DNA of 42,967 nt from Candidatus Poribacteria bacterium (lineage in GTDB: Bacteria > Abyssobacteria > SURF-5), in NCBI GenBank assembly GCA_016215705.1, contig JACRIR010000248.1, positions 1 through 42,967 of the forward strand, in the 5' to 3' direction. The position numbers were made by a program, and so were the translations under genes. This document shows, piece by piece, positions 150 to 23,866 of the stretch; the first letter of the stretch is position 1, and each line of letters opens with the position of its first letter. The notes below the pieces were generated by a model. That model was given only the letters and a program-made list of their open reading frames with translations. It ran no database searches and was not told the DNA's origin.

Positions 150-2891
150 CTATGGTTCAAACTGGTCGAACAAGGGTTGAAGCAGCGGGAGTCCGGCCGC
201 CGACCTACCACCAGCGCCGACCGCTGGGACGCGCGAGATTTCTTCGCATTGTTTTGCGCCGCCTATGACGAACTTGTTACAATCGCCGATGATACCGATT
301 TCGTCACCCTTTGCGCCATTGAGCAGGAACAGCTCGGGATGATCGAAAGGCGCGGATTCGTTCTTGACGCGTGGATCGGTGAGCGCCAACAAGAACGAAA
401 TCAGGGCTTCTTCTTTTTCCTCGTTCATGCCCGGGATAACGTCAATCAATGGCGCCAGATTGTCAATGTTTTCTTCGTGGAAGTCGCCGCCGCGCACATA
501 GAAATCGACTACTTGCCGCAAGCTTGCGATTCCGCCATTGTGGAAGTAGGGCGCGGTAAGCTCTACGTTCCGCAGAGACGGTGTCTTAAAAGCGCCGTCG
601 ACCGCCACTCTGTCGAGGTCACATGATTCCTCGCAGGGCAGTTCGGGGACATACTGAGCGATTTCGGGCGGCAAGAGTCCATCGCGTTGCAGCAACGCCA
701 TACGCGAGAACGACAGCGGGTAGCCAAAAGCGCCGGTCCCGCCCTTGCCGATATCCTCGTCAGTCGGCCTGACGCCAAGGTTGTAATAGCCTGTGTCGTA
801 GAAGGCTTCGCCGACGGCCATTCCCATGCGCTCGATCAAGCCTTCCAACGTGAACACGAGTTGCCCGCGGATTTCGCCCTCGGGATAGGCGGCGGTTTCA
901 ACGGTGATATAGGCGTTTCCCTTCATCAACGCTTCAATCGCCTGGGACATGCTTATCACCGCCTCGCTCGGGATGAAATCAAGCGCGGTAAGGGTGCCGG
1001 TCAGTTGGATCGAGAAGGCCGTGTTCGAGAGGACAAACATGACCGGGCCGTTTTCTCTGGCGGCGCCGTAATGAATCCTGGCGCCTGTCACGTCGGCGAT
1101 GTTTCGCACTTTCAGGAAATAGGAAATGAGCGAACGCTTCGAGTCAACGTTCAAGACCGCGTCTCCGCTCGCAGAAGTCGCCACGGGGGGAACCACTTGA
1201 ATTCCGCTCAAAGGCGAATCAATGGGCAGAACGGCTTCCACCAGCAAATGGCCGCGTATCTCGCCTTCCGGGTGGGCGAGCGTGGTTATATTTGCATAGG
1301 TCTGGCCGTCCAACATGGCGTTTATCACGTCGTCGAGTGTGTTGATTCCCGGAGCGGGGATGAGATCGGACTGGTTCAAGGTTCCGGTCAACTGGGTGTC
1401 AAAACCCTGGTTCGTCAAGACAAAGAGGGCCGGTCCGTTCTCACCCGGGTTTCCAAGATTGATCGTCGCGCCCGTTATTCCGGAGATGTTGACGACCTCA
1501 ACTTCGAATTCGATCTGTGTGCGAGCGGGATTGAATATGAGACTCGTCTCCCCGCTGGCAGCGGTCGCAACCGGCGGGATTTCCTGGTTGCCGCTCATAT
1601 TTGCCACCATTCCCAGCGGTTCGGGTGGATGGACGGTGGCCGTAACCGTAGCGATCGTAAATTCGGGGCCGCCGTGGCAGAATACGCATCTGCCGGTCGT
1701 GAGGAAAACCTCGAGGCCTTCCAGTTGTTGCTCGTTTAGCGCGGCAGTCTGCCCTTCCTGGTATCGGTCAAAGGGAGTGTCGTTCGATACGAGGGTCGCC
1801 TCATAGGCCTGAACGGCCAGTCCGAAGAACAAAGCGAAGTTGGCCTCCATCTGCGTGTACTCGTTAGCGGCCAGCGCGCGGGGAGGCAACGGCGCAATCT
1901 GGCGAAGGCCGCTTGCGTCGATCGTTACAATTTGATTTGTGTTCTGCCAGAATTGCGACCTGAATGCCTTCTTAATCATGTCTGAATAATTAGGTGTCTT
2001 AAGGCCGCGAAGCCCTTGCGCCTGGCCGTTTTTCAGAGTGGCGCGGGAATACCGGCCGAGCAATTGGTCTTGCGTATGCACGAGTTGCTTCGCGAGCGGC
2101 CTCAACCGCACCATTTTCTTTCCAATATCGGCAAATGCGCGACCGCTAAACGCCATCTCGACGTCGCTCATCGGCGGGCCGACAGCTTGCGAAGCAAGGC
2201 TCGAGTCGGGAAGTCGCACCAATTGCTCCTGCAACAAGCCGTTCACATCTTTGAATACTCCGTTTGTCGTGTCCGTAGGTCCAACCGGATTCACACCATT
2301 GAACACGTTGTTTGCGCGCCCGTCCCAGAAATTGGCGAAATTGAAGACGGCGTTAATGACGGAGGGAGCGTTTCGCCCTGTAGACTGTCTGACATTCACG
2401 CCATTCACATTAAAGATGGGGTCCGAAACGGGTTTTCCCGCTTCCACCGAACTGCCGGGACGTATGGCGACAAAATCATGACGAAAGACCCCCTGCGAGC
2501 CAGCCACGTCGTTGCTGTCGAAGAGGACATCCGAATGGCGATCATTCGGGTTTGAGAGTTGGTGGAACGGAAAATCATCCGTCTGGAGAGTATGATTGGG
2601 CAGATCGACCTCGAATTGCTGGTCGCCGGCGGCGAGGCCGGGACTGAGTTGATTCTTGAGACGGCTGTCGGCTCCGGCGTTGAAATGGCAGGAGGCGCAG
2701 GCGGTAATTCCGTCGCTTCCGACCTGCATGTCCCAGAACAGGGCTTTGCCCAATTCGATGGCGGCGACCTCATTCTGAACAAAATCAGCCAAATTCGGAG
2801 GCTTCGGAGTGGGAATTGTTTTCAGTGGCGCAGGCGCAAAGGGGTTTGTGGGGAAATCAGCGCCGCAGAGCGACATCACCAAGGCTATCAT
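150..2891 (-). CDS. Diheme cytochrome c peroxidase/MauG-like protein with two CHRD domains
   Basis: A large secreted c-type cytochrome of 913 residues from the chosen start. Heme motifs are CASCH (65-69) and CVFCH (402-406). The peroxidase/MauG signatures FWDGRA (188-193) and the C-terminal KTPSLRNVELTAPYFHNGG (769-787) are intact. Between the second heme and the C-terminal part sit two CHRD domains (about 434-551 and 563-679), each ending in PEGEIRG. The family reduces peroxide or oxidises a periplasmic or surface partner; the substrate here is unknown. The ATG at 2891 is chosen because AGGAG lies 7 nt upstream. It leaves only a very short hydrophobic leader (MIALVMSLCG), and the frame stays open upstream to 3188 through repeat sequence, so the start is uncertain. 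It is the last gene of module 1, after the secreted protein at 3667-4902, and paralogous to 9202-12087 and 20733-23633. Confidence 0.88.
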   Translation of the reverse strand: MIALVMSLCGADFPTNPFAPAPLKTIPTPKPPNLADFVQNEVAAIELGKALFWDMQVGSDGITACASCHFNAGADSRLKNQLSPGLAAGDQQFEVDLPNHTLQTDDFPFHQLSNPNDRHSDVLFDSNDVAGSQGVFRHDFVAIRPGSSVEAGKPVSDPIFNVNGVNVRQSTGRNAPSVINAVFNFANFWDGRANNVFNGVNPVGPTDTTNGVFKDVNGLLQEQLVRLPDSSLASQAVGPPMSDVEMAFSGRAFADIGKKMVRLRPLAKQLVHTQDQLLGRYSRATLKNGQAQGLRGLKTPNYSDMIKKAFRSQFWQNTNQIVTIDASGLRQIAPLPPRALAANEYTQMEANFALFFGLAVQAYEATLVSNDTPFDRYQEGQTAALNEQQLEGLEVFLTTGRCVFCHGGPEFTIATVTATVHPPEPLGMVANMSGNQEIPPVATAASGETSLIFNPARTQIEFEVEVVNISGITGATINLGNPGENGPALFVLTNQGFDTQLTGTLNQSDLIPAPGINTLDDVINAMLDGQTYANITTLAHPEGEIRGHLLVEAVLPIDSPLSGIQVVPPVATSASGDAVLNVDSKRSLISYFLKVRNIADVTGARIHYGAARENGPVMFVLSNTAFSIQLTGTLTALDFIPSEAVISMSQAIEALMKGNAYITVETAAYPEGEIRGQLVFTLEGLIERMGMAVGEAFYDTGYYNLGVRPTDEDIGKGGTGAFGYPLSFSRMALLQRDGLLPPEIAQYVPELPCEESCDLDRVAVDGAFKTPSLRNVELTAPYFHNGGIASLRQVVDFYVRGGDFHEENIDNLAPLIDVIPGMNEEKEEALISFLLALTDPRVKNESAPFDHPELFLLNGAKGDEIGIIGDCNKFVIGGAKQCEEISRVPAVGAGGRSAAGLPLLQPLFDQFEP

Positions 2892-2907
2892 GGCGGCGCT
2901 CCTAATG

Positions 2908-2942
2908 AAAAGGGGAAAGATGAAAGGAACAGGGCGAAAGGG
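2908..2942 (+). repeat. Purine-rich GGCGAAAGG repeat (family F1), solo arm
   Basis: It is a purine-rich stretch ending in GGGCGAAAGGG, related to the inverted arms of the four-helix-bundle elements at 27957-28408 and 31414-31579. Read on the minus strand it lies in frame just ahead of the likely cytochrome start and would encode FPFRPVPFIFPLF, so it may add hydrophobic residues to the leader if translation begins upstream. Confidence 0.65.
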
Positions 2943-3189
2943 AAAAACCGAAGAAGAAGAGGGAATACCTTGCTCCGATCTTGTCGGAGGTCGCAATGAT
3001 CGCGGGGGGGGCGCGCTTTCTTTCGCAGTCAATCTGCCGCGCGTAGGTCGCACGCTCCGAAGAAAGAGGCGAAAGGCGAAAAGAGAGTTACGAGTTGCGA
3101 GTCGCGAGTCGCGAGTCGGGATTTGGGAAACAGGGAAATGGAACCGACTAGACTGAAACTTCATTTTCTTCCTCCTACCAGGAAACATC

Positions 3190-3227: not shown

Positions 3228-3376
3228 AGGTAACTGCGTTTCCTTTGCAATTAACCCCCGCGCGATGGGATCGGCTGCTCCGGGCGCCGAGCTTCAACGC
3301 GGCGTCGATTCAGGCGTGGGGTTGATTCTTTCTCGATTCTGCGTGAAACCTGCTTATTATATTATATAATTTATCT

Positions 3377-3411
3377 GAATTATCCTATAGGCTATACGTA
3401 GAAGTACCCAA
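3377..3411 (-). promoter_or_regulatory. Candidate NarL-type activated promoter for the cytochrome at 150-2891
   Basis: On the minus strand a TTGGGTA heptamer (complement of TACCCAA, 3405-3411) is followed after 22 nt by TAATTC (3377-3382), a possible -10 box. The same layout occurs at 7644-7678, 12201-12234 and 18059-18092. The heptamer differs from the NarL consensus TACYYMT in its last base. The leader to 2891 would be about 480 nt, which is long. Confidence 0.4.
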
Positions 3412-5212: not shown

Positions 5213-7267
5213 TTACGGTTGGAACTGGTTCACGGGACTTTGGAGCGGAGACAGCCCGATTCCGAGCCGGCCGAAGGTTCCCACTGCTTGGACTCGGAAC
5301 GCTTGTTCACATTGTCTGAAACCGGCCTGCACGATCACCTCGCAGTCTCCGACCACGTTATTTTCGTTTCCACGAGCGCCATTCGGGACAAACAATTCCG
5401 GATGGTCGAACGGAGCGCCTTCGTTGCGGACGCGGTCGTCGGTGAGCGCAATGAAGAACGCGACGAGAGCATTCTTCTTGTCTTCACTGCCGATCAACTG
5501 ACCGATTTCGTTTATGTCCGGGTCCAGGTCAGCGACATTCGCCTCGGGGAAATTGCCTCCCCGCGCATAGAAATCCACGACTTGTCTGAGAGTCGCCATT
5601 CCACCGTTATGCATGTAGGGCGGAGTGAGATCGAGGTTGCGCAGACCGGGGGTCTTCACTGCCCCGTCGACGGCCACTCTGTCCGGAGGATTGGGTGTTC
5701 CGGGCGGCAGGTCGGGAACAAACGCAGCCAAGCCGGCCGGGAGTTGTCCGTCGCGCTTCATTATTGCAAGCCTTGAGAACGAGAGCGGGAACCCGAACCC
5801 GTCGAGTCCGCCTCTGCCGATGTCTTCGGCGGTCGGTCTGACACTGATGTTGTGCATTCCGAGGTCGATGAAGGCGCTGCCCTGGGTCATGTCAATCAGA
5901 CTGATGGGCGAGCCCTCGGCCGCGATTGCGGTAAACGTATGGTTGGAGAACTCGGCGCCGCTGTGGCACTCGGAGCACATGGTTCCGCCGGAAGTAAAGA
6001 TGCCGAGTCCATCTTTTTCCTGGGCGGAAAGCGCGCTGGCATTTCCTGCGAGGTAGCGATCGACGCGCGAGTCGTCGGAGACAAGAGTTGATTCGTACAT
6101 CTGGACTGCGAGCCCCCAGAAGAATGCGAAGTTGGCTTCCATCTGTGTGAACTCATTCGCGGCCAGAGGGCCACCAGGATTGGGAGCGATCTCGCGAACG
6201 CCATCGTTTATCACAACGATCTGTGCGGTGTTATTCCAGAACCTGGGCTGGAAGGCGGCCTGGATCATCTGGGGATAAGTGGAAGTGAGCCCGCGCAGGC
6301 CCGTTGCGCGGTCCCGCGCGTCCAGTTTAGCCCTCGAGAGGGCGCCCAGCACGCTGTCTTGCGGATGAACAAGCTGCTTGTCGAGCGGTCTCAGAGCCAG
6401 CATCTTCTTGCCAAGGTCGGGCCACGTACGGCCGCCGAATGACATCTCGAAGGGGCTGAGCGGAGGGCCGACCGCTTGCGAGGCCAGGCTCGAATTGATT
6501 ATTCTCACGAGTTGTTCCTCCAGGGTTCCGCCATTATTCACAAATACGCCGTTCTGGAGGTCGGACGGCCCGAACGGATTGTTACCGTTGAAGATGTTAT
6601 TTGCGCGGCCATCCCAGAAATTGTTGAAATTGAACACGGCGTTTATCGCGGTCGGTGTGTTCCGAGGTTCGACGCGCCGGATGGTGACACCGTTGACGTT
6701 AAACACGGGATCGTCCAAGGGTGTCCCTACATCCGTTGCGTTACCGGGATTGACCGCCTCGAACTGGGTCAGGAACACGCCTTGTGATGAAGCGACGTCG
6801 TTGCTGTCGGATATCACGGCAGAGAGATGGTCATCCGGGTCTGCCAACTTGTGGAAGGGGAAGTTCGCGAGGTTCAGGACATGGTTGGGGCCGCCGGTCT
6901 GGAATGTTTCGTCGCCGGCATTCAGGCCCGGGCTCAGTTGATTCTTGAACCGCCTGCCGTCGGCGCCCGCCACGAAATGGCATGTAGCGCAAGCCTGGAT
7001 GCCGTCGCTCCCGACCTGCATATCCCAGAAGAGGGCCTTGCCGAGAGCTATGGAAGCGTCGCGGTCGGCGACATAGCTCGCAAGGTCCGGCGGCTCAGGG
7101 ATGGGAACCTGGCTGAGGGGCGGCGGGTTCGCGGCAAATGCTGAGCCTAGCATGAAGCCGGCCAGAGATAACGATGCAAGCAGGATCGCCGCGAAGGTCT
7201 TCGTGCTGCGTGGACGTTTCGACTTGACGAAAGGCCCATCCAATCCACATAAGTGCGACTTGAACAT
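5213..7267 (-). CDS. Large diheme cytochrome c peroxidase/MauG-like protein
   Basis: The protein has 684 residues, with AAAGGAGG placed 8 nt before the ATG at 7267. A signal peptide spans roughly residues 22-46 (TFAAILLASLSLAGFMLGSAFA). The two c-heme sites are CATCH (93-97) and CSECH (431-435). NFWDGRA (216-222) and, near the C-terminus, LRNLDLTPPYMHNGG are classic peroxidase-family signatures. Unlike its three relatives in the window it has no CHRD domains: the sequence passes straight from the second heme into the C-terminal part. It is about twice as long as typical CcpA or MauG, the size class of surface-associated members. It is the first structural gene after the kinase/regulator pair at 7747-9079. 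Substrate unknown. Confidence 0.9.
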   Translation of the reverse strand: MFKSHLCGLDGPFVKSKRPRSTKTFAAILLASLSLAGFMLGSAFAANPPPLSQVPIPEPPDLASYVADRDASIALGKALFWDMQVGSDGIQACATCHFVAGADGRRFKNQLSPGLNAGDETFQTGGPNHVLNLANFPFHKLADPDDHLSAVISDSNDVASSQGVFLTQFEAVNPGNATDVGTPLDDPVFNVNGVTIRRVEPRNTPTAINAVFNFNNFWDGRANNIFNGNNPFGPSDLQNGVFVNNGGTLEEQLVRIINSSLASQAVGPPLSPFEMSFGGRTWPDLGKKMLALRPLDKQLVHPQDSVLGALSRAKLDARDRATGLRGLTSTYPQMIQAAFQPRFWNNTAQIVVINDGVREIAPNPGGPLAANEFTQMEANFAFFWGLAVQMYESTLVSDDSRVDRYLAGNASALSAQEKDGLGIFTSGGTMCSECHSGAEFSNHTFTAIAAEGSPISLIDMTQGSAFIDLGMHNISVRPTAEDIGRGGLDGFGFPLSFSRLAIMKRDGQLPAGLAAFVPDLPPGTPNPPDRVAVDGAVKTPGLRNLDLTPPYMHNGGMATLRQVVDFYARGGNFPEANVADLDPDINEIGQLIGSEDKKNALVAFFIALTDDRVRNEGAPFDHPELFVPNGARGNENNVVGDCEVIVQAGFRQCEQAFRVQAVGTFGRLGIGLSPLQSPVNQFQP

Positions 7268-7746
7268 GACTAAATCCTCCTTTTGATGTCAAATAAGCCT
7301 CTGACTTCTCTTTTTGATAGAGTAGTATTGCCCGAAAGAAAAACCTGCTTGCTCGGATTTGTGCCTATCCCTATGAGTGCGCATGCGGTCGAAAGAGCAC
7401 GCGTGCGTGTGGGGAGGAAGCACTCGTCCTTGCCGGCGGAGCCCTGTTGCTTTCATCTCTTGAATACATGATTGCTTTAGTTTGCTGCTTTATGCGAATT
7501 GCCTAGCTGGCTGATTGATATCGAGGTCTTTTCGAGCATTCTTGAAAAGCTGTCCGCAAAGCGGCTGATTCGTGCGATTTGGCCCATGTGTTGATACAAG
7601 CATAAGATAAAATGACTCTAATTGGTTCAGAATTCTATCCAGGATTGTACCAATTTTTTACTGAGTAGAAATACCTATTGAGAGGGACGAGTTTGTAGCA
7701 GCGCGCCCAGGAGTTGGCCGAGAATCGAAAGTCCAACGCCCAAGAA
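7268..7746. other. Intergenic region with one promoter candidate, no gene
   Basis: It lies between the truncated regulator and the cytochrome at 5213-7267. Nothing protein-like is convincing. The only structured signal I see is the TACCTAT promoter candidate at 7644-7678. A remnant of the missing regulator C-terminus is not recognisable here. Confidence 0.6.
7644..7678 (-). promoter_or_regulatory. Candidate NarL-type activated promoter for 5213-7267
   Basis: On the minus strand ATAGGTA (complement of TACCTAT, 7672-7678) is followed after 22 nt by TACAAT (7644-7649). TACCTAT fits the NarL heptamer consensus TACYYMT. The site lies between the truncated regulator and the cytochrome gene, so it can only serve the cytochrome. 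The leader would be about 370 nt. Confidence 0.5.
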
Positions 7747-8106
7747 TCAACAGAAGGATTCAGATGTTCGCGGGCATATGGGAATCCGCGCGGAGGCGTG
7801 GAGAGGCGGCCGCGCCTCCAGCACATGAAACATGTATTCTTTTCTCTTGTGCATGGTGAGAACCAGGACTTTCACTCCCGGCTTGCTCATTTTGATTTGG
7901 CGGGTCGCTTCGATTCCGCCGAGTTTGGGCATGGAAATATCGAGTATGACCATTTCCGGTGTCGCGCCCTTCAATATTTCAAGAAGCTCGAGACCGTCGC
8001 CTGCCTCCTCCGTCACGACCATGTTATCCGACCCATCGATAATTTTCTTTAATCCGCGCCTGAGCAGGATGTGATCGTCAGCCAGTATGATGCGGTATGG
8101 ATTCAT
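7747..8106 (-). pseudogene. Truncated NarL/FixJ response regulator (receiver domain only)
   Basis: The 119-residue product has a normal receiver start, the acidic pair D10/D11, the phospho-acceptor D56 (VILDISMP) and LVLTMHKRKEYMFHVLEA. It matches the intact regulator at 18281-18946 until residue 98, then turns into unrelated RPPLHASARIP and stops. The rest of the receiver and the whole LuxR-type HTH are missing. The break coincides with a GGAGGCG/CGCCTCC palindrome (7792-7798 with 7813-7819). The ATG at 8106 has GGAGG at good spacing and overlaps the kinase gene by 29 nt, so the pair was once a normal operon. It may be dead, or may act as a phosphate sink without DNA binding. Confidence 0.85.
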
Positions 8107-9201: not shown

Positions 9202-12087
9202 CTATTCCTGGAACTGGTCTACAACGCTCTGGAGCGGCGCATAGCCTGCCCACGTGCGGCCGTATTGGCCTATGGCCGGGATTTGCATCACCCGCTCGCA
9301 CTGTCTGAAGCCGCCGAGTCCGATGACATCACAGTCGCCGCTGATGAGTGTTTCGTCTCCCTTCGCGCCGTTCGGGACAAACAACTGTGGATGATCGAAC
9401 GGCGCCGACTCGTCCTTCACGCGCTCGTCGGTGAGCGCAAGCATGAAGGCAACGAGAGCATCCTTTTGGGCATCGGTCAAATTGAGTTCATTGATATCCG
9501 GGTCAAGGTCATCGATGTTCTCATCGTGGAAGTCGCCGCCCCGGTCATAGAAATCCACTACTTGTCTTATGGTGGCCGCTCCGCCGTTGTGGAAGTAGGG
9601 CGGCGTCAACTCGAGATTGCGGAGGCCGGGAACCTTAAACGCGCCATCGCGATTTACTCTGTCCGGCGGGTTGGACTGACCGGCCGGCAGGTTCGGGACA
9701 AACCGGGCGAGTTCGGGCGGCAGGAGGCCGTCGTCCTTCATCATCGCCAGTTCCGCGAATGAGAGCGGGAACCCGAACGGGTCGCTTCCACCTCGGCCGA
9801 GGTCTTCCTCACTTGGCCTGACACCGATGTTGTACATTCCATCGTCATAAAACGCGCGACCCACGGCCATGGTCATCAATTCGATGGGTCTCACGGACCC
9901 AGGGGGCAGCGGCAGGATTTGCCCACGGACTTCACCGTCCGGGTGAGTAGCGGAATGAACGTCGACGTATAGTGAGCCGTTATTCATCGCGTTTATTACA
10001 TCATTGAAGTTCGCAATTCCGGGTGCCGGAATGAGGTCGTCCAAGCCAACGGCGCCGATCAGGGGGCTCCCGAAGGCTCCCGAGGTTAGTTCGAAAATGG
10101 CGGGGCCGTTCTCGCCGGGCAGACCCGAATGAACATGGGCTCCCTCAAGATCGGCAATATTGCTGACATCGAGCCGGAAATCGATTGTTCTGATCGCCGG
10201 GTTAATAGTCAGGTCAGCGAGGCCGCTTCCGGTCGTGCTCACAGGCGGCGCTACTTGCGCGCCGTTCATGGTTGCCTGGAAGTTCGGAATATCAAGGAGC
10301 AACTGGCCGCGGATTTCACCTGCCCGCCTGGTTAGGGTGCGCACATTGACGTATGTGTTGCCTGCGATCATCGCGTCGAGCGCCTGGTCAAAAGTGGCAA
10401 GGCCGCCGGCGGGAATGAAATCAGCCGTAGTCAACGTGCCGGTCAACAGTCCGGTAAAATCCGCGCGAGAGAGAGTGAATATGACCGGACCGTTTTCGTT
10501 GGCAGCGCCGACATGAATGTGCGCGCCTGTTATGTCTCTGATATTCTGCACCTGAAGGTCGAAGATAATACTCTCCCGGAGAGGAGTGATTGCGACTAAG
10601 GCGCTTCCGCTCGCGCTCGTTTGGACGGGTGGAACTTCCTGGTCTCCGAACAAACCCGCCACCAGGTCAATCGCCTGGGGACCAATCACCTGGCCCAAGA
10701 TTCCCGAGACGGCGTGATTCGTGAATTCCGGTCCTCGATGGCAGTTAAAGCACTTACCCTGACCGTTAAATATTCGAAGTCCTTCCTGCTCTTGCGCGGT
10801 AAGCGCCGTGGTGTCCCCCAGCGTGAAGCGGTCGAAGGGGGTGTCGTCCGAGACGAGCGTCGATTCATACATCTGCAGCGCCAATCCGAAGAAAAGGGAG
10901 AAGTTAGCTTCCATTTGCGTGAACTCGCCGGCTTGCAGCGGTCGCTTCGGGCGCGCCATGATGCGCGGAATACCGTTCGCAAGTTGGAATCGTCTCGGCT
11001 CTCCGGCGGTAGCGACGTTTGCAGATGTGGCTTTGTTCGAGAATGTGAGTATCTGGGTTGTATTGTTCCAATACTTGGGCTGAAACGCGGCCTGGATCAA
11101 TTCGGTGTAGGTGACATTGAGTCCTCGTTGGCCGGTCGCCCTGCCGCGCGAGTCCGTCGTAGCATTTGAAAAACTGCCCAATGCGCTGTCGAGAGGGTGG
11201 ACAAGCTGCTTGGCGAGAGGCTGTAATGAAAACATTTTCTTGCCGAGATCCGCAAACGTGCGGCCTGCGAACGACATCTCGAAGTCGCTCAGCGGCGGGC
11301 CGACAGCCTGAGAGGCAAGGCTCGAGTTTTCCAGCCGAACACTTTCTTCCTCGAGAACGCCATTGTTATTGACAAATACGCCATTCAGCGTATCGGATGG
11401 GCCAAAAGGGTTCACTCCGTTGAAGATGTTGTTGGCGCGGCCATCCCAAAAGTTCGTGAAATTGAAGACAGCATTGATCACGGTCGGTGTATTCCGGGGC
11501 TCGACGCGCCGTATGGTGACGCCTCCGACGTTGAAGACAGGGTCGGCCAGCGGAGTCCCGATGTCCGTAGAATTCCCTGGAGTGATTCCAACAAAGTCGT
11601 GGAGGAACACGCCTTGTGAGGACGAGACGTCGTTGCTGTCGGAGAGCAACTCCGAGAACCTGTTGTCCGGGTCCGCGAGTTTATGAAACGGGAAGTCTGC
11701 GATGTTCAAAACATGATTCGGGCCGCCGATCTGAAAAGTCTGATCGCCGGCGGGAAGTCCCGGCGACAGTTGGTTCTTGCCGCGGCGGCCGTCGGCTCCC
11801 GCTGCGAAATGGCAACTCGCGCACGCCTGGACGCCGTCGCTGCCGACCTGCATGTCCCAGTACAATGCTTTGCCCAGGACAAACGCGACATTGCGGTCAC
11901 GAATGAAGTCACCGAGATTCGCCGGCTCGGGTATAGGAACCTGCGAGAGAGATTGAGAGGATGCTATCCCCGAGAGGAAAGCCGTCAGAACTGCGAATGC
12001 GATTATGAGTACGCCGACGGGCTTTGCGTCAAGAGATAATTGAGAACGCATCCTATTTTCCTTCTTTGTTTTTGCGATGCACAACAT
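9202..12087 (-). CDS. Diheme cytochrome c peroxidase/MauG-like protein with two CHRD domains
   Basis: The protein has 961 residues, with AGGAGG 5 nt before the ATG at 12087; an internal ATG at residue 13 is an alternative. A hydrophobic signal segment lies at about 24-45 (VGVLIIAFAVLTAFLSGIASS). Heme motifs are CASCH (89-93) and CFNCH (446-450), with NFWDGRA (212-218) between them. The CHRD domains (about 481-597 and 608-726) are the best preserved in the window: both keep HxHxG (HIHVG, HVHSG), ENGPVIF or ENGPAIF, and GEIRGQ or GEVRGQ endings. The C-terminus has LRNLELTPPYFHNGG. It is the last gene of module 2, downstream of the peroxidase at 12703-13947, but has its own candidate promoter at 12201-12234. 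A peroxidase-type enzyme with an extracellular binding insert is likely; the substrate is unknown. Confidence 0.9.
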   Translation of the reverse strand: MLCIAKTKKENRMRSQLSLDAKPVGVLIIAFAVLTAFLSGIASSQSLSQVPIPEPANLGDFIRDRNVAFVLGKALYWDMQVGSDGVQACASCHFAAGADGRRGKNQLSPGLPAGDQTFQIGGPNHVLNIADFPFHKLADPDNRFSELLSDSNDVSSSQGVFLHDFVGITPGNSTDIGTPLADPVFNVGGVTIRRVEPRNTPTVINAVFNFTNFWDGRANNIFNGVNPFGPSDTLNGVFVNNNGVLEEESVRLENSSLASQAVGPPLSDFEMSFAGRTFADLGKKMFSLQPLAKQLVHPLDSALGSFSNATTDSRGRATGQRGLNVTYTELIQAAFQPKYWNNTTQILTFSNKATSANVATAGEPRRFQLANGIPRIMARPKRPLQAGEFTQMEANFSLFFGLALQMYESTLVSDDTPFDRFTLGDTTALTAQEQEGLRIFNGQGKCFNCHRGPEFTNHAVSGILGQVIGPQAIDLVAGLFGDQEVPPVQTSASGSALVAITPLRESIIFDLQVQNIRDITGAHIHVGAANENGPVIFTLSRADFTGLLTGTLTTADFIPAGGLATFDQALDAMIAGNTYVNVRTLTRRAGEIRGQLLLDIPNFQATMNGAQVAPPVSTTGSGLADLTINPAIRTIDFRLDVSNIADLEGAHVHSGLPGENGPAIFELTSGAFGSPLIGAVGLDDLIPAPGIANFNDVINAMNNGSLYVDVHSATHPDGEVRGQILPLPPGSVRPIELMTMAVGRAFYDDGMYNIGVRPSEEDLGRGGSDPFGFPLSFAELAMMKDDGLLPPELARFVPNLPAGQSNPPDRVNRDGAFKVPGLRNLELTPPYFHNGGAATIRQVVDFYDRGGDFHDENIDDLDPDINELNLTDAQKDALVAFMLALTDERVKDESAPFDHPQLFVPNGAKGDETLISGDCDVIGLGGFRQCERVMQIPAIGQYGRTWAGYAPLQSVVDQFQE

Positions 12088-12200
12088 GATAGCCTCCTAG
12101 TGAAGTATTGCGTAGTGCGGCAGGGCGTATGCGAGCGCTCTGCGTGTCGAGTCACCGCTGCCGATTCACGAAAGTTATTCCTAACTATACATTTGCTCAA

Positions 12201-12234
12201 ATATTATGCCTTTGCTATTGTGACAAATACCTAT
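12201..12234 (-). promoter_or_regulatory. Candidate NarL-type activated promoter for 9202-12087
   Basis: On the minus strand ATAGGTA (complement of TACCTAT, 12228-12234) precedes TAATAT (12201-12206) by 21 nt. The segment GTCACAATAGC between them resembles TTGACAATAGC at the same place in the site at 18059-18092, so the two promoters are related over about 20 nt. A partial inverted ATAGG lies at 12241-12245. The leader to the start codon is about 107 nt. Confidence 0.55.
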
Positions 12235-12512
12235 TTTGCGATAGGAAGGAATACATATGTGGTTAAGTCGAAGGTCGGAAGAGTACGGTTTATGGTTTAT
12301 GGTTCATGGTTTGCGGGAAGAAGTGATGAGGAACAGATTACGAGAGTGAAGAGAGAAGAAGTTTGGGGTCCGGGGTTTGGGGTTTGGATTCTCTATAAAT
12401 GGGGGTGAGGAAGCTGTCTCGTGGTCATGGATGCAATGCGAGCGCGCAGCACGCCGTGCCCCCACGGCCCATTAGATAGAAATCCCCTGGAATCCATAAA
12501 TAGTGGCGGCAG

Positions 12513-12702: not shown

Positions 12703-13947
12703 TCACATCCCGCATCCGCCGCCACCCATGCCTCCGCCACCGCCACCGCAGCATCCGCCTCCGTCGGTCAGCGTGAGCATGAAGGCTACAATGGCGTCGA
12801 CCTCTGATTCTGTCAGGCCGAGATTGCCGAGTTCATCGACGTTCATGTTCTGTGGCGCCTCAGCGTCGGGCCAGCCCGCGACGTCTCTTGTGTTGTAGAA
12901 ATCCACGATGTCTTTCAGGGTTGGGAAGTAGCCATTGTGCCCGTAGGGCGCCGTGATGGCGACGTTGCGGAGCGACGGGACTTTGTGCTTTCCGTTTTGG
13001 TCCGCGTAATTCGCGTCGCCGAAGAGCGGCGAGCCGCTCAAGTAGTCTTTCTTAAGGAATCCGCCCAATCCGTAATCAGTCGGGTTGTCCAAAAGCAGGG
13101 GATTCTTGGGGATGCCTACGTTGTCATAGGTAAAATCGGTGAGCATCGGCGGGATTCCACCGGGCTCGCCGGTCGTCAAGTGGCAAGCGGAGCAGTTGCC
13201 CTTGGTATTGAAGAGCGCCAGCCCCTCTAATTGTTGTGCATTGAGAATGCCTTGTGGAATCCCTGGAGGCAAAGGCAAGCCGATAAGGCTCACGTCTATG
13301 CCCCGGTTTTTGCATTCCATCCAGAACTGGTCGAACTTCGAGCTGAATCTGCTTAAGTCCTTCGATCTTTCATATGCTGCGATCGCTTTGGCTATGTTGT
13401 CATAGGCTGTATCTACGTTGTTTAACGAGTTTGTGCCGAAGACTTGCTTGAACAATGAAGCATAGCATGATTTCTTTACGACATTCACGACAGCCGCCTT
13501 GTTAGGCATGGCCATCTCGAGCGGATTCAGAAACGGCCCCTGCGCTTGCTCGGCAAGGGGGTCTGCGAGCCGCGTGTGTCCCGTGGCCCGCCCATCCCAG
13601 AAAAGGCCGCCTACGTACAAGCCTTCCGTATCATCCCAGCCGAGCACGGGGCTAAAGCCCGCATATGCCGCCGTGGGAGCATTGCGTCCGCCCTTGCTGA
13701 CTCCGTCTGAGCCGGTAGACACGACGCTGTCGTATGGGTCGGCGGTATTGGCGGGGTCTGCGAATCCGGCCATGGGATGATGACAACTCGAGCAGGATTG
13801 ATTCTTGTGCAGCGACAGATTTCTGTCCTGGAAGAGGTGTTTCCCGAGCATTTCGATGTTGGAAAGCCCCATCGCTGCAAATGAGTAGCTTGAAGACATC
13901 AATAGCAGCAAGAGTGTGAGGCACAGTAAGGGTTTTACGCGGGCCAT
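12703..13947 (-). CDS. Cytochrome c peroxidase family diheme protein with Gly/Cys-rich tail
   Basis: The protein has 414 residues from the ATG at 13947, preceded by AAAAGGAGA at about 8 nt; an open frame upstream to 14295 is repeat sequence. The signal peptide is MARVKPLLCLTLLLLLMSSSYSFA. Heme motifs are CSSCH (52-56) and CSACH (252-256), with FWDGRA (116-121) and KVPSLRNVAITAPYGHNG (322-339). This is the ordinary size of bacterial diheme peroxidases. The last 18 residues are unusual: after LTLTD the chain is almost pure Gly with Cys399, Cys400 and Cys412. That tail could bind metal, form disulfides or anchor the protein, and it is not part of the family core. It follows the two multicopper-oxidase-like genes in module 2. 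Confidence 0.9.
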   Translation of the reverse strand: MARVKPLLCLTLLLLLMSSSYSFAAMGLSNIEMLGKHLFQDRNLSLHKNQSCSSCHHPMAGFADPANTADPYDSVVSTGSDGVSKGGRNAPTAAYAGFSPVLGWDDTEGLYVGGLFWDGRATGHTRLADPLAEQAQGPFLNPLEMAMPNKAAVVNVVKKSCYASLFKQVFGTNSLNNVDTAYDNIAKAIAAYERSKDLSRFSSKFDQFWMECKNRGIDVSLIGLPLPPGIPQGILNAQQLEGLALFNTKGNCSACHLTTGEPGGIPPMLTDFTYDNVGIPKNPLLLDNPTDYGLGGFLKKDYLSGSPLFGDANYADQNGKHKVPSLRNVAITAPYGHNGYFPTLKDIVDFYNTRDVAGWPDAEAPQNMNVDELGNLGLTESEVDAIVAFMLTLTDGGGCCGGGGGGMGGGGCGM

Positions 13948-14394
13948 GGTGTTTTCTCCTTTTCCTCTCGATAACCGGTTTACGGTCCACGGTTTGCGGT
14001 CTGCGGTCTGCGGTCTACACGGCATGTCGCCCAAAAGGGATAGACTATTTGTCATTCTGAGCGAAGCGAAGAATCTCCTCCGGGATGCAGAAATTTGCAG
14101 CAAAATGTGAGAGTCTTCGTCATTTGGGTACGACCCTTTGCTCCTTAGAATGACAATCCCGATTCGGCTATAAACCCGAGTCTCATTCGGGTAACGAGCA
14201 ACGCAGTTCGCGGTTGGGGAAAAGCGGGGACGCGATGTCACATCATGTTTCCGTTTTTCCCGGGAATCTGAACCAGACAGCTCTGCACAGAACATTGAGA
14301 AAACATCTCGTCTGAAATTGTGCGAATAAGGACAGCCCCGAAGTACGAAAAATCGGGGACACCATACGGCATGGTGTCCCCAGTTCTCTGTTTG
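13948..14394. other. Intergenic region of repeats
   Basis: No gene. It holds GGTTTACGGTCCACGG/GGTCTGCGGTCTGCGG-type simple repeats (about 13976-14018), a TCATTCTGAGCGAAGCGAAG motif (about 14054-14073, inverted relative to 5033-5057), a decayed P1 palindrome (14225-14253) and a good P1 palindrome (14355-14381). Confidence 0.6.
14355..14381. repeat. P1 palindrome, GGGGACACCAT form
   Basis: An 11-bp perfect stem (14355-14365 with 14371-14381). It lies just downstream of the multicopper-oxidase-like gene at 14395-15852, but no T-run follows on the minus strand. Confidence 0.8.
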
Positions 14395-15852
14395 TCAGGT
14401 TGTTATGTTAATGGGAATCCGTGCGGTCATCAGGCGTCTGCCGGGACCGGCGGTGTTGCTCTGTGTATCCAGGAACTCGACGAAGGCAAAGCCGCTGAAC
14501 GGCCTGCCGGACCTCGTGATTGCGTCGAAACGCCGGGCGGTGCTGAGCAGTATTGGTCTTCCGGCGGGAAGCAAGAAGGCCGTGTTGTAATTCCCGAAGG
14601 GCGGCACGCCGAGGGCGCGGCCGTCAAAGGCTATGATCGCCACAGGAATCGGGAAAGTGACCCTGGCGTAGTTGTACGCCGCATCGAGGCACCGGATTAG
14701 TATGGTCTGGTTAACACGAGCGTTAATCGCGACCTGGGTGCCGGAGATGCCGCTCATCAGTGCAGGGGGTATTTCCCCATCCGGGAGGCCGCCTCCAGCA
14801 GGTGGCGCGCCCGCAGGGTTGATAGTGCCAATACCGGTGCCGCCACGGTCAATCCGTGCAGCCGGCACAGGGACGCCCGTGATAAACCAGTAGTCCGCGT
14901 TGTAGTCGTGAAAGAACCCGCGGAAAAATTCATCGTTGACACCGGGCTGGTTGCCATGCTTGGGGAAGAATGCCCTTGGGTCCGGCGCAAAGTCGCTCCA
15001 GACGGAGTCCCTATCGTCGCACACCCACACCGCTTCGACATCATAGGGCACGGTGTAGGCATGGGGGTCTCCGTTTTCGACCCCGACCGGAGTGCCCTTG
15101 GTGAACCCGGGGAACGGGTTGGGCCTGCCGGTGACGACAGGATCGAGATTGCATTGGACCCTATGCAGTCCATCGGTTCCGGCGCCGATGGGAATATCAT
15201 TAAGCTCTACAGTGCCATCCGGGTTTATTGAGTCAATCGAGGCGAAATAGGCGTCGGGCGCCTCGAAGATCATTGCGCCGTACAGACCGTATTCAAAGTG
15301 CTGAACCGTATTCCGGTGGCAGTGGTAGAAATAGAAGCCCATGAAGTTGGGCTGCCACTGATACGTATAGTTGCCGAGTTCCATCGAGCAGTGTCCTACG
15401 CCGTCGTTTATCGGGGTGGGCTCGATGCCGTGCCAATGGATGGTGTGCGGCGGCGGCCCGTGGCCCAGCGTTGCTCCATGAAAGATCGCTCCACGTGGCA
15501 TGCGAAGAGTGGCAGCGGGAAAGTTGCCGTTGCCGGTAGAAGGATTGTCCTGGTCTCTGAAGAGGAAGAAGTTCAGGAGTTTGCCGTCCCACCCGGGCAG
15601 TTGCATGCCGTGCATCAGGTCTCTCTGTACAGTGTGTGGAACACTGACCTGACTGTGGTAACCTGCAGCCAGCATCACTTCGGGCACGGGATTGGCCCTC
15701 GTTCCCAGCGGAAGGTTTTCCAAGTCGAGGAGCTCAGGTGTCGGGGGACTCTCATTGGGCGGATCGAACATCTTGGCCCATAGCCCGGTCTCCCCGGCAG
15801 GATGTTCCACGGATCTGCGAGGAATCAGATTTTCGGGATTCGCGACTGACAT
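14395..15852 (-). CDS. Multicopper-oxidase-like protein carrying only the domain-1 copper motifs
   Basis: The protein has 485 residues from the ATG at 15852. Cupredoxin domain 1 has HTIHWHGIEPT (H139 and H141) and FYFYHCHRNTVQHFEYGLYG (H177, H179, H185). These match multicopper oxidase motifs I and II, half of the trinuclear ligands. The C-terminal half resembles a copper-free domain 2 (VNQTILIRCLDAAYNYARVTF, IIAFDGRAL). The chain then ends: no HPxHLH or HCHxxxHxxxGM motif follows. No signal peptide is visible. The gene directly upstream (15967-17592) has the missing domain-3 motif and a Tat leader, so the two may assemble as one split oxidase and be exported together. The gap of 114 nt contains a P1 palindrome. 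A stand-alone enzyme cannot be ruled out. Confidence 0.82.
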   Translation of the reverse strand: MSVANPENLIPRRSVEHPAGETGLWAKMFDPPNESPPTPELLDLENLPLGTRANPVPEVMLAAGYHSQVSVPHTVQRDLMHGMQLPGWDGKLLNFFLFRDQDNPSTGNGNFPAATLRMPRGAIFHGATLGHGPPPHTIHWHGIEPTPINDGVGHCSMELGNYTYQWQPNFMGFYFYHCHRNTVQHFEYGLYGAMIFEAPDAYFASIDSINPDGTVELNDIPIGAGTDGLHRVQCNLDPVVTGRPNPFPGFTKGTPVGVENGDPHAYTVPYDVEAVWVCDDRDSVWSDFAPDPRAFFPKHGNQPGVNDEFFRGFFHDYNADYWFITGVPVPAARIDRGGTGIGTINPAGAPPAGGGLPDGEIPPALMSGISGTQVAINARVNQTILIRCLDAAYNYARVTFPIPVAIIAFDGRALGVPPFGNYNTAFLLPAGRPILLSTARRFDAITRSGRPFSGFAFVEFLDTQSNTAGPGRRLMTARIPINITT

Positions 15853-15919
15853 ATGCTTTTTCCTTTCTTGAGAGCGCAGATTGCTGCGCCTGTACGGGCA
15901 ATTGCACTCGGATTCGTCC

Positions 15920-15958
15920 GGAATCGGGGACATGATGAGACATCATGTCCCCGATTCC
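15920..15958. repeat. P1 palindrome, 18-bp perfect stem, GGGGACATGATG form
   Basis: 15920-15937 pairs with 15941-15958 around AGA. The core change from CACG to CATG is compensated on the opposite arm. It sits between the two multicopper-oxidase-like genes, where a transcript would form a strong hairpin. Confidence 0.9.
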
Positions 15959-15966
15959 GTGGCTCA

Positions 15967-17592
15967 TTACATGTTCATTATCTCCGGGAACGGAGGCAGG
16001 GGGCCGGCAGCAGCTTGCGGGCTCACATTCGGATTGGGCCCGAAGACTTCCGGTATGTTCGGGAAGCTCAGTACGCCGCCGGGTAGATTACCGTCGGCAT
16101 TGCGGTCACCCGTGAAATTCATTCCTGCGATCAACCCGAGGTTGTAGTTGCCGCCCTGGGCAGTCTGGCTCGGTTCCGAATGGTCGTGCATCGGGAAACA
16201 CAGAGGCGACAACTGCACATGTATCGGGTTAACTCCTGCCATGGTTCCCACTCTTGGGATAGCCATGAACATCTCTTGCGTCGGCGGCCACGTGGCCACT
16301 CCCGGCGGAGTATCTCCTGCCGCCACTTCTTCTCCCACCATGATCACGCCGAAATTGGGTATGGGGGTCGGGTCTACGGGAAGCGGGACCTCGAGGTCAG
16401 CGCGTCCGATGCCTTTGTTGTTGGGAACATCCGGAGGCCGCATGTATGGGTTCAGCCAATCCCATGTGTCCAGAGGTTTCGATGTGAAGGTGTCTATCCA
16501 GATATGATTGTCCCTTTGGCCCGGGAGCACGTCCTGTGCGCTGAACTGATTGTTGACGGCCAACACATACACGTGGTTTGCGTGGATATGCATGGAGTGA
16601 CACCACAGCCCTGCGTTGAGAACCCGGATGATACAGGGTTCGCCGACGCGGAGGTTCGGGCATACGAACGGGCTATTGTGGGAGAAATGTCCGGACTGGC
16701 CGCTAATGGTGAAGTATTCCGGCGTGTTGTTTTCCACCGGGGCCTTGTTTGCCCCTTGGGTGATGAGTGGGTCATTCAGGAATTTATCAAGGAAAGTTTG
16801 CGCCGGATAGTTCACGCCCGGATTGTTAAATGAGAATATCCCCACTTCCTGGAACAGCAGCGGGCTGGGCTGATGCAGCAGCCAGATATACTGCCGGAAA
16901 GCAGGAGTGGCAGGGAAGGGAGCGGGATTAGCGGCGCCCTCGCCCCAAGCAAGCCCGGGCCACCACGGCTTTGCGCCCAAATCGGCGAACAACTGCGCCA
17001 TTCTCGGATTGGCGGTAACATCAGCAGCGCCATAAGGTGTTCCATTGGCCGGATTGGGCATGACGATGAAAGCGCCATGCAGACCCATTACACGGTTCAC
17101 CGGCGCATTCAGGTCGTCATAATAGAGATAGCTTCCCGCCGAACCAGCCGGCAATGTGAACCTGAGAGTTGTTGTCGTAGGCGTCGCCGGAGTGCCTGCG
17201 GCCATTGTGCTGCTGGTGAACGGCCCCAAACCGGGGAACTTAGCCTCCATGGACGGAATTGCGAAGCGATGTGCAGTGGGAAGATTATTTCTCAGATTGA
17301 TCGTGATGGTGTCTCCCTCGAAGGCGAAGATAGTGGGCCCGGGGACCTCGGCATCGATGGCCGGGGCTGTCGACTTAAAAAGCCAGAAGTAGCATTCCGC
17401 ATTGTTTGCGGCGTTGTGGGTCACCATCTCTTTGACCCCATCCATCAGTGCGAGATTGAGGGTCTGGGTTGCAGCGATAACAGCATTACTTTTAGCGAGC
17501 CAGCGTGGCACTTTAGGCCCCACCACAATGGCCGCCGCGCCGCCCAGCCCGTGCGAGATAAACTCACGTCTATCCATTCCTCTTTCTTTCAT
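15967..17592 (-). CDS. Tat-exported multicopper-oxidase-like protein carrying the domain-3 copper motif
   Basis: The protein has 541 residues from the ATG at 17592, with GGAGG 5 nt upstream. The leader MDRREFISHGLGGAAAIVVG is twin-arginine (R8, R9). The cupredoxin part at 84-180 has GPTIFAFEGDTITINLRNNL, but motif I is lost (AHRFAIP instead of HWHG) and motif II reads YLYYDDLNAPVNRVMGLHG, without its HxH. Further on, CHSMHIHANHVYVL (331-344; H332, H335, H337, H340) matches motif III. FPMHDHSEP (H469, H471) is the likely motif IV, with Asp in place of the type-1 Cys. It therefore holds the half that the neighbour at 14395-15852 lacks. It is the first structural gene after the intact kinase/regulator pair. 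Confidence 0.82.
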   Translation of the reverse strand: MKERGMDRREFISHGLGGAAAIVVGPKVPRWLAKSNAVIAATQTLNLALMDGVKEMVTHNAANNAECYFWLFKSTAPAIDAEVPGPTIFAFEGDTITINLRNNLPTAHRFAIPSMEAKFPGLGPFTSSTMAAGTPATPTTTTLRFTLPAGSAGSYLYYDDLNAPVNRVMGLHGAFIVMPNPANGTPYGAADVTANPRMAQLFADLGAKPWWPGLAWGEGAANPAPFPATPAFRQYIWLLHQPSPLLFQEVGIFSFNNPGVNYPAQTFLDKFLNDPLITQGANKAPVENNTPEYFTISGQSGHFSHNSPFVCPNLRVGEPCIIRVLNAGLWCHSMHIHANHVYVLAVNNQFSAQDVLPGQRDNHIWIDTFTSKPLDTWDWLNPYMRPPDVPNNKGIGRADLEVPLPVDPTPIPNFGVIMVGEEVAAGDTPPGVATWPPTQEMFMAIPRVGTMAGVNPIHVQLSPLCFPMHDHSEPSQTAQGGNYNLGLIAGMNFTGDRNADGNLPGGVLSFPNIPEVFGPNPNVSPQAAAGPLPPFPEIMNM

Positions 17593-17768
17593 AACTGCCT
17601 CCATCTTTGAGGGACCGGTCCGAGCTTCGGGTCCGTCCCTGCCCCAATTAGTGACCTCCGACATTTCTTGAGCGACAAACCCCCACTTCAGGTTTGTGCT
17701 TGAAGCCGATATCGAGCTTTAGGTGAATCCTCCGCGCATGCCCACCCGTGTCACCACCTCCCAAAAGA

Positions 17769-17801
17769 TAGGCGAAAGGCGAAAGGAACAAGGCGAAAGG
17801 G
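17769..17801 (+). repeat. F1 repeat, solo TAGGCGAAAGG arm
   Basis: It begins TAGGCGAAAGGCGAAAGG and ends AGGCGAAAGGG, like the left arms of the four-helix-bundle elements, but has no attached gene and no inverted partner. Confidence 0.75.
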
Positions 17802-18058
17802 AAGGATTCAAAAAGAAGAAAACCAGCTTGTTTCTGGTTTCGAACCTCACTTTTCTTCCCCAAACCACCCGGCCAAATCGTACTCGTGGCCAACCGTGAA
17901 GATATGTCCAGTTGCCGGTGCAAACCCGTTTACAATCATTTATTTTGTATCGAGGTGTTTTTTTGTCTTTGTTCATACGGGCCAACTAGGTCTTGCTGTG
18001 TTTTTTGCCGTCAGTCAATGGTAAAGAACGCTGCATCTAATAGGATATAATTACTCCA

Positions 18059-18115
18059 ATTTATCTTGCACGCTATTGTCAAAAGTACCTATTTCATATA
18101 GGTAGAAATGCCTAT
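18059..18115 (-). promoter_or_regulatory. Candidate NarL-type activated promoter with three heptamers
   Basis: On the minus strand a heptamer complementary to TACCTAT (18086-18092) lies 21 nt upstream of ATAAAT (18059-18064). A second heptamer in inverted orientation (18098-18104) makes a TACCTAT-5-ATAGGTA pair, and a third, TGCCTAT, lies at 18109-18115. TACYYMT heptamers in inverted pairs are the known NarL target. The site sits between the intact regulator gene and the multicopper oxidase genes and would drive the latter with a leader of about 460 nt. Confidence 0.58.
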
Positions 18116-18280: not shown

Positions 18281-18946
18281 TCATTGCATCATGTCAGTAT
18301 CCGATGCGTAGCCTCTGCGGATTGCGTATTTAACGAGGTCCGCCACGTTACGTATGTTCAACCGTTTGGCGATACTGGCGCGGTGATGCTCGACGGTGCG
18401 AATGCTGATAAAGAGCTCAGAGGCAATCTCTTTGCTGGATTTCCCTTCGGTCAGGAGTTTCAAAACGTCCTTTTCGCGGTCCGTCAGGCAATCGAGTCGT
18501 GGCTTGTCGTTGCGGCGGCAAGTCTCGACCAGGTCGGTGGTCAGTTCCTTGAGAAAGGAAGGTGAGACATATGTTTTGCCGTTGCGGATTGTCTCGACAG
18601 CGGAGAGAAGCTCTGTGTCCGTGTCTTCTTTCAAGAGGTATCCATCAGCGCCTGCGGCAAGCGCTCGATAGAAATATTCTCTCCTTCTGTGCATGGTCAA
18701 GATCAGCACCTTTATGGCGGGGTGGTTCTGCTTGATTCTTTGTGTTGTTTCAATTCCCCCGAGGCATGGCATACTGAGGTCGACGATGGTCATGTCGGCA
18801 GGAGTGTGGTCGAGTAAGGCAAGAAGCTCAAGGCCGTCACCTGCCTGGGCGACAACGGCCATGCCATCGAATTCGTCTATGATTCTCTTTATTCCCATTC
18901 TCAGCAGGGCGTGGTCGTCAGCAAGCATAATGCGATAGGAACTCAT
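18281..18946 (-). CDS. NarL/FixJ-family response regulator
   Basis: The protein has 221 residues from the ATG at 18946, with a strong AGGAGG at 8 nt; the open frame upstream is palindrome sequence. The receiver has D10/D11, phospho-acceptor D56 (TIVDLSMP), LILTMHRRRE and K near GYLLKED. A LuxR-type HTH follows (LTDREKDVLKLLTEGKSSKEIA, then ISIRTVEHHRASI). It is the only intact response regulator in the window, while three related kinases are present. This makes it the best candidate to read all of them and to bind the shared TACCTAT heptamers. It lies 151 nt downstream of its kinase, separated by two P1 palindromes. Confidence 0.95.
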   Translation of the reverse strand: MSSYRIMLADDHALLRMGIKRIIDEFDGMAVVAQAGDGLELLALLDHTPADMTIVDLSMPCLGGIETTQRIKQNHPAIKVLILTMHRRREYFYRALAAGADGYLLKEDTDTELLSAVETIRNGKTYVSPSFLKELTTDLVETCRRNDKPRLDCLTDREKDVLKLLTEGKSSKEIASELFISIRTVEHHRASIAKRLNIRNVADLVKYAIRRGYASDTDMMQ

Positions 18947-19001: not shown

Positions 19002-19040
19002 GAAAGTGGGGACACGATGCCGCATCGTGTCCCCACTTTC
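19002..19040. repeat. P1 palindrome, 19-bp perfect stem
   Basis: 19002-19020 pairs perfectly with 19022-19040 around one base. It lies between the kinase and regulator genes; the next copy begins 16 nt further on. Confidence 0.92.
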
Positions 19041-19055: not shown

Positions 19056-19098
19056 GCAAATGCGGGGACACCATGCGGCATGGTGTCCCCGGATTTGC
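19056..19098. repeat. P1 palindrome, GGGGACACCATGC form
   Basis: A 14-bp perfect inner stem (19063-19076 with 19078-19091) is extended by GCAAAT/ATTTGC after one mismatch. The distal arm touches the stop codon of the kinase gene. Confidence 0.9.
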
Positions 19099-20120
19099 TA
19101 GGCCGGAACTGCAAGGGCTATTTTTGTCCCTTTTCCCGGCTCGCTTGAGATTTTAAGAGAAGCGCCCAGCATGCGGGCGCGCTCGTCCATAGCCTCGAGC
19201 CCCAAGCCCTTGTCCCCGGCATATACGGCTTTAACCTTTTGGACGTCGAAACCTTTTCCGTTATCTTCCACAAAAAAGAGTGACCCTCCGCAGTCACGGC
19301 AGGCGCGGATTGAAACGCGGCTGGCCTGAGCGTGTTTTCCTATATTGGACAGCGCCTCCTGGAAAATTCTGTAGACAATCAGGTGAGACTTGCGCGCGAA
19401 CAGGTTATCGACTTCGTCGATATCAAGCAATACATCTATGTTGCAGTGCGCAGCGAAATCCTCGACGAGGGACCGGATTGCGCACACGAGCCCGAGGTCT
19501 TCGAGGGTCGAGGGGGTCAGATCGTGGGAAAGCCTGCGAAGGCTTTCGATAATCTGATTTGCGCATTTCTGGGCTGCTTCGATGTCGGTCTTAACGGATT
19601 GCCTCTCTTCGCACAGCTTATTCTCGACCGCCCGCAATTCCAGTTTCAGCAAAGTCGTGATTTGCCCCAGATCGTCATGTAATTCCAGCGCAATTCTCCT
19701 CCGCTCCCGCTCCTGGGCGGTAAGGAGATGGCCGGACAGGAGTCGAAGTCTTTTTTCGGATTCCCGCAACTCATTTTCCATTCGCTTGCGTTGCGTCATT
19801 TCTCGTTCGAGAAGGGTGTTGGCTGCCGATAGGCTGGCAGTCCTCTCCTCGACGCGTTCTTCCAGTTTGTCACGAGACTCTCGCAACGCGTCTTCCGCTC
19901 GTATACGCGCGGAAAGCAGGTTGGACGCTATTATCCCGAATCCTCCAAACAGGAGCAGGATGAATGATCGAATATAGAGTTCATGGTGGGGCACTCCCCA
20001 CAGAAGCAACTGAAAAAAAGAGCCTCGGTAAAAGATGAAATAATCCGCCCCGGCGTCGATCAGCCAGGCGAAGAGCCCCATGACGAGCGACAGGATGAAA
20101 ATACTTGATCCGGTCTTCAT
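19098..20120 (-). CDS. NarL-family sensor histidine kinase
   Basis: The protein has 340 residues. Two N-terminal membrane segments flank FIFYRGSFF and PHHELYIRSF. A coiled coil (about 75-130) follows, then the HisKA_3 box LELHDDLGQITTL, LRRLSHDLTPSTLEDLGL, and an HATPase with EALSNIGKHA, EDNGKGFD and GLGLEAM. It has the same layout as 8078-9079 and 25573-26667. Its partner is the intact regulator immediately downstream. No extracytoplasmic sensor domain is visible, so the signal is probably sensed in or at the membrane. Confidence 0.94.
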   Translation of the reverse strand: MKTGSSIFILSLVMGLFAWLIDAGADYFIFYRGSFFQLLLWGVPHHELYIRSFILLLFGGFGIIASNLLSARIRAEDALRESRDKLEERVEERTASLSAANTLLEREMTQRKRMENELRESEKRLRLLSGHLLTAQERERRRIALELHDDLGQITTLLKLELRAVENKLCEERQSVKTDIEAAQKCANQIIESLRRLSHDLTPSTLEDLGLVCAIRSLVEDFAAHCNIDVLLDIDEVDNLFARKSHLIVYRIFQEALSNIGKHAQASRVSIRACRDCGGSLFFVEDNGKGFDVQKVKAVYAGDKGLGLEAMDERARMLGASLKISSEPGKGTKIALAVPA

Positions 20121-23824: not shown

Positions 23825-23866
23825 ACGCAGGTTTGGTTCACTGATGTTGACTCAACCATTTGTGTT

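Follow-up and report, generated by a model that had tools for sequence, protein, structure and literature searches.

A tandem inverted repeat at oxidase promoters as putative operator of a NarL/FixJ-family response regulator

The locus and its two-component genes

The window, that is, the whole stretch of DNA analysed (42,967 nt), is the entire contig C193 of a 5.47-Mb genome in 270 contigs, and the genome-wide counts given below rest on pattern searches of that genome. The genes that matter here are as follows, sites 1 to 4 being the shared promoter elements of the next section.

150..3188, minus strand: MauG-CHRD protein, behind site 1
5213..7267, minus strand: MauG-type di-haem protein, MbnH-like (below the cut-off), behind site 2
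7747..8106, minus strand: truncated regulator paralogue, receiver to residue 98, 57% identical, no HTH
9202..12087, minus strand: MauG-CHRD protein, behind site 3
12703-14295: MauG-type di-haem protein, last listed gene of the site 4 unit (12703-17664)
14395-15933: second Cu-oxidase_3 protein, after 15967..17664 in the site 4 unit
15967..17664, minus strand: multicopper oxidase (Cu-oxidase_3), first gene behind site 4
18281..18946, minus strand: NarL/FixJ-family response regulator, receiver plus GerE HTH, helix TVEHHRA; proposed binder
19098..20120, minus strand: HisKA_3 histidine kinase (profile match); presumed partner

The genome has many other regulators (63 response-regulator matches); within the window, 18281-18946 is the only intact one (receiver plus GerE). 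Its receiver scores 90.7 bits (Response_reg), with the acceptor Asp56 read from the sequence in IVDLSMP, and its C-terminal GerE HTH 68.1 bits (residues 153-208). Against the curated NarL model PRK10651 it reaches 126.8 bits, under the cut-off of 250, and by these profile scores it is a member of the NarL/FixJ family, not NarL proper. The closest solved relative by sequence is VraR (PDB 5hev, E 7.6e-33), whose recognition helix reads TVKTHVSN in place of TVEHHRAS.

Three paralogous HisKA_3 kinases, 46-49% identical, lie in the contig (8078-9088, 19098-20120 and 25573-26667); the window kinases match NarX/NarQ models in the catalytic part only, far below cut-off. After receiver residue 98 the sequence of the truncated regulator 7747-8106 becomes unrelated, and a search nearby found no HTH; the kinase that goes with it (8078-9088) is intact. 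No regulator adjoins kinase 25573-26667. Together, this orphan kinase and the truncated regulator may be a sign that part of the cluster is decaying.

Some other features were recorded in passing. The proteins of 3667-4932 and 23892-25169 are 75% identical to each other, have no Pfam match, and are each encoded upstream of a MauG-CHRD gene. Similar GC-rich inverted repeats of the GGGGACACGATGCCGCATCGTGTCCCC type, perhaps a dispersed palindromic element, are found in intergenic DNA at 19009-19040, 12512-12545 and 3533-3570. A gene for a 23S rRNA-intervening-sequence type protein (27953-28360) is flanked by a CbbQ/NorQ-type AAA gene and a VWA gene, although the window contains no rRNA.

An 18-bp dyad at four promoters

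An initial annotation of this DNA had proposed that four promoters share the heptamer TACCTAT. It is exact on the plus strand at 7672-7678, 12228-12234 and 18086-18092, but 3405-3411 reads TACCCAA (2 mismatches). All four sites are intergenic and, as described there, lie on the minus strand, with MauG-type or multicopper-oxidase genes following at a distance of 129-410 nt, and the inverted pair at 18086-18104, with its inverted copy at 18098-18104, is exact; that pattern occurs without mismatch only this once in the 5.47-Mb genome. Abundance of the heptamer in the window is clearly not due to chance: six copies compare with 1.1 +/- 1.06 in shuffles (0 of 100 reach 6), and the intergenic DNA of the window alone holds five where 0.28 are expected (0 of 2000 shuffles). 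Copies at 13126 (inside a gene) and 20249 (no dyad match) were set aside.

As a description of the element, nonetheless, the heptamer is too short and in the wrong frame. In the direction of the genes TACCTAT reads ATAGGTA and forms the left half of an 18-bp dyad, ATAGGTA-N4-TACCTAT, present as follows.

3394..3411, minus strand: site 1 dyad, TTGGGTA-CTTC-TACGTAT, 11/14
7637..7654, minus strand: site 2 possible proximal half-site, ATTGGTA(-CAAT-CCTGGAT), 24 bp downstream of the dyad; without a right half, weak
7661..7678, minus strand: site 2 dyad, ATAGGTA-TTTC-TACTCAG
12217..12234, minus strand: site 3 proximal dyad, ATAGGTA-TTTG-TCACAAT, 24 bp from the distal dyad
12241..12258, minus strand: site 3 distal dyad, ATATGTA-TTCC-TTCCTAT, 12/14
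18075..18092, minus strand: site 4 proximal dyad, ATAGGTA-CTTT-TGACAAT, left 7/7, right 4/7, 23 bp from the distal dyad
18098..18115, minus strand: site 4 distal dyad, ATAGGCA-TTTC-TACCTAT, 13/14, ahead of the copper-oxidase unit

With the right arm held at exactly N4, 18 of the 28 positions match across the four main sites (P ~1e-5 against sampled intergenic heptamers). Dyads stand clearly in tandem at two of the window promoters (sites 3 and 4, 24 and 23 bp apart), where the upstream, distal copy is the better one and the right half of the proximal copy is weak (4-5 of 7 positions). Sites 1 and 2 are without a good second dyad, the upstream copy at site 1 (ATAAGCA-AATT-GGCCCAT) being degenerate (9/14) and 25 bp away. 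Searched with its centre as ATRGGTAYTTCTACCYAT, the dyad has 11 matches (<=3 mismatches) in 5.47 Mb, four of them in this contig; one of the 11, ACGGGTACTTCCACCCAT, lies 31 nt after the gene of the closest paralogous regulator, on contig C141.

Two other definitions of the motif were abandoned. An early long motif without dyad symmetry, AWRGGTAYTTNTNACNNAT, gave 28 hits as against 41 for the reversed control, and thus no enrichment. The inside pair TACCTAT-N5-ATAGGTA was rejected as the unit because single sites such as that on C141 retain only the N4 dyad.

The first genes behind three of the sites are paralogous; the one that follows site 4 is unrelated. A comparison of the upstream regions found no other clear similarity among the four promoters, and the motif is therefore not the trace of a recent duplication. 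No site was found for the MauG-CHRD gene 20733-23633 or elsewhere in its module (20733-26667), so that the idea, advanced in the initial annotation, of all three modules forming one regulon is unsupported.

Linkage of the dyad to a regulator subfamily

We built a scoring matrix from the window sites only and applied it to the 500 nt downstream of regulator homologues. Same-family relatives of the window genome in the comparison set were limited to two (G001 and G002), and MauG-CHRD homologue loci in named genomes were too diverged for footprinting. Three loci stood out, each with 0 of 300 shuffles: G387 (25.3), G266 (20.1) and C141 (16.7); the remaining homologues scored at or near background. 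G266 and G387 are genomes of another family in the same domain, with regulators that share 52 and 55% identity with that of the window; the C141 regulator is 60% identical and shares the recognition helix TVEHHRAS. Downstream of its regulator gene G387 carries ATAGGTA-GTTC-TACCTAT and then TTAGGTA-GTTA-TGCTCAT, and G266 carries TTAGGTA-GTTT-TACCTAT and then ATAGGTA-ATTA-CACTTAT. In both genomes the two dyads stand 24 bp apart, and hence the tandem arrangement seen at sites 3 and 4 recurs in a distant lineage, although there the genes that follow the dyads encode small secreted proteins instead of MauG or copper oxidases.

Among 42 distinct regulator loci, the TVEHHR helix occurs in four (window, C141, G266 and G387), and precisely these loci carry the dyad; the highest score among the remaining 38 is 12.4. 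The resulting P of 9e-5 for the link between helix and dyad, with the training locus excluded, is optimistic, since the score threshold was chosen after the data had been seen and the four loci amount to two related pairs. Independent cases are likewise few, because G266 and G387 are mutually related and C141 is a paralogue within the window genome. The linkage makes a NarL/FixJ-family regulator, as the initial annotation had supposed, the likely binder common to several transcription units.

Several near-matches were not counted. C77 (helix TVDWHR, ahead of a MauG gene) scored 12.2 with the window-only matrix, which is background; L059 (ahead of a PRC-barrel gene) reached 14.1 with a wider matrix, under which an unlinked control locus reached 14.5; G146 (helix TVENHR) has degenerate sites only. 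Chance may account for a one-mismatch dyad in the AT-rich genome G387 (TTAGGTA-ATTA-TACCTAT, L148 4963-4982, before the cytochrome c7-type gene at C170) and for further one-mismatch dyads there. A weak dyad (ACCCGTA-CTTC-TTCCCAT, L057 6987-7006) lies ahead of the only MauG locus that the window genome has outside the window, beside a regulator that is 49% identical and has the helix TVDWHR, possibly a diverged sister system.

Promoter position and regulatory interpretation

A -10 box had been placed 21-22 nt from the heptamer in the initial annotation, a placement that is not supported: one window site is without such a box, as are the homologous G266 and G387 promoters. At site 1 the proposed hexamer is TAATTC, which does not fit TANNNT, and at site 4 the hexamer at 18059-18064 is ATAAAT (minus strand), TAAATT requiring a 22-nt gap. 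The genome-wide scan suggested there, run as ATAGGTA-N20-23-TANNNT, returned seven matches, three of them within the 43-kb contig. Candidate -10 hexamers were instead predicted further downstream.

3361..3366, minus strand: site 1 candidate -10, TATAAT, 38 nt from the left half
7604..7609, minus strand: site 2 candidate -10, TATCTT, 38 nt from the possible proximal half-site
12184..12189, minus strand: site 3 candidate -10, TATAGT, 38 nt from the proximal left half
18042..18047, minus strand: site 4 candidate -10, TATCCT, 38 nt from the proximal left half

No set as good as TATAAT/TATCTT/TATAGT/TATCCT arose in 2000 shuffles with the best gap left free, the anchor at site 2 being a secondary half-site picked afterwards. 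G266 has a standard promoter (TTGTCA-N17-TATTAT) whose -35 directly adjoins the dyad and whose -10 lies at 33 nt, the position occupied by TAATAT in G387. The candidate gaps thus differ between lineages (33 vs 38 nt) and the -35 regions are poor; even so, boxes at 33 or 38 nt appear to fit better than those at 21-22 nt. By these candidates the centre of the proximal dyad would fall at -48.5 or -43.5. Either position is next to the -35 or farther upstream, as expected for an activator, and class II activation by the putative regulator is possible. The proposed promoters imply untranslated leaders of more than 300 nt before the start codons (17665-18041 and 7268-7603); an Rfam search of the window, leaders included, gave no match.

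We consider it probable that ATAGGTA-N4-TACCTAT is the operator of the response regulator 18281-18946, through which four transcription units would be jointly activated. The neighbouring HisKA_3 kinase would phosphorylate the regulator, which would then dimerise on the 18-bp dyad; at two window promoters, and likewise in the two distant genomes, a pair of dimers would be arranged in tandem with a spacing of 23-24 bp, slightly more than two helix turns. Placed just upstream of a weak -35, they would recruit RNA polymerase, a role suggested by their position. One regulator would in this way govern four predicted units (150-3188, 5213-7267, 9202-12087 and 12703-17664) that encode extracytoplasmic di-haem (MauG/MbnH-like, CHRD) and multicopper oxidases. 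For one of these, the adjoining regulator copy has lost its DNA-binding domain, and that unit must therefore rely on the intact protein or on another factor.

Other readings of the same dyads deserve weighing. They may be general to the regulator subfamily, with another paralogue, e.g. that of C141, controlling the window promoters alone or jointly; the C141 protein does have the same helix and its own dyad 31 nt downstream, but the best site adjoins the window's own regulator and outscores the C141 dyad (26.9 vs 16.7, by a matrix trained on the window sites), so we regard this as unlikely. The regulator might equally bind as described and repress, phosphorylation either releasing or strengthening the repression. 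Were the -10 at 21-22 nt, the proximal dyad would span about -40 to -23, across the -35 and spacer, and block RNA polymerase, and NarL itself is a repressor at some promoters (PMC4549865). Those boxes, however, are the ones that G266, G387 and one window site fail to conserve; the better hexamers downstream set the dyads upstream of the -35, and weak -35 regions are typical of activated promoters. Repression accordingly strikes us as rather improbable.

The initial annotation had equated the heptamers with the TACYYMT boxes of NarL, single or in 7-2-7 pairs. TACCTAT fits that consensus and the protein belongs to the right family, yet TACYYMT is at chance level in the window (15 vs 13.95 expected) and was dropped as a motif, the 7-2-7 pattern TACYYMT-N2-AKRRGTA matches just once there (<=2 mismatches, at 7672), and the regulator reaches only half of the NarL equivalog cut-off. 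The repeat unit is moreover inside-out, with TAC inside, the reverse of NarL, and a 4-bp spacer (7-4-7); we give this identity very little credence. Least credible of all is that the shared sequence was left behind by gene duplication or serves an alternative sigma factor as a -35-type element. The genes behind it are indeed related, paralogues making up three of the four first targets, but its dyad symmetry and tandem repetition, the unrelated gene behind site 4, the lack of homology outside the motif and the regulator linkage in other lineages all speak against this reading.

Binding by 18281-18946 followed by activation, the reading that we prefer, has parallels among known regulators, which we take as resemblance in working, not membership. 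NarL, likewise a receiver joined to a GerE-type HTH (Escherichia coli ogt, yeaR), binds as a dimer to an inverted repeat, TACCCCT-AA-AGGGGTA (PMC4549865), and at ogt occupies two operators at -44.5 and -77.5, one abutting the -35 (PMC7419079). Tandem spacing is 33 bp there and 23-24 bp here, however, TAC lies outside in TACYYMT-N2-AKRRGTA and inside in ATAGGTA-N4-TACCTAT, and no nitrate sensor was recognized in the window kinases. ComA of Bacillus subtilis, of the same HTH superfamily, recognizes TTGCGG-N4-CCGCAA, also an inverted repeat with a 4-nt spacer, followed towards the promoter by a more degenerate unit (PMC4797271); its half-site is different, and a direct repeat spaced by 5 nt forms its second unit, in place of the degenerate inverted repeat seen here.

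A small literature search found no described operator of sequence ATAGGTA-N4-TACCTAT. More tentatively, and as a possibility to which we give somewhat less than even weight, the NarL/FixJ subfamily with the TVEHHRA helix may read an undescribed tandem operator of this sequence (23-24 bp), and the surviving regulator may here have captured the promoter of a module that arose by duplication and whose regulator lost its DNA-binding domain, so that duplicated oxidase modules became joined in one regulon. A conserved operator for a well-known regulator family is an ordinary kind of bacterial switch; it is the sequence and context that are novel. An uncultured lineage thereby gains a concrete putative regulator-operator pair, for which a single protein and a single DNA fragment would suffice as an in vitro test, and a named putative regulon of secreted di-haem and copper oxidases. 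A recognition-helix sequence is also tied to the sequence of an operator, in a large family of regulators for which few specificities have been worked out.
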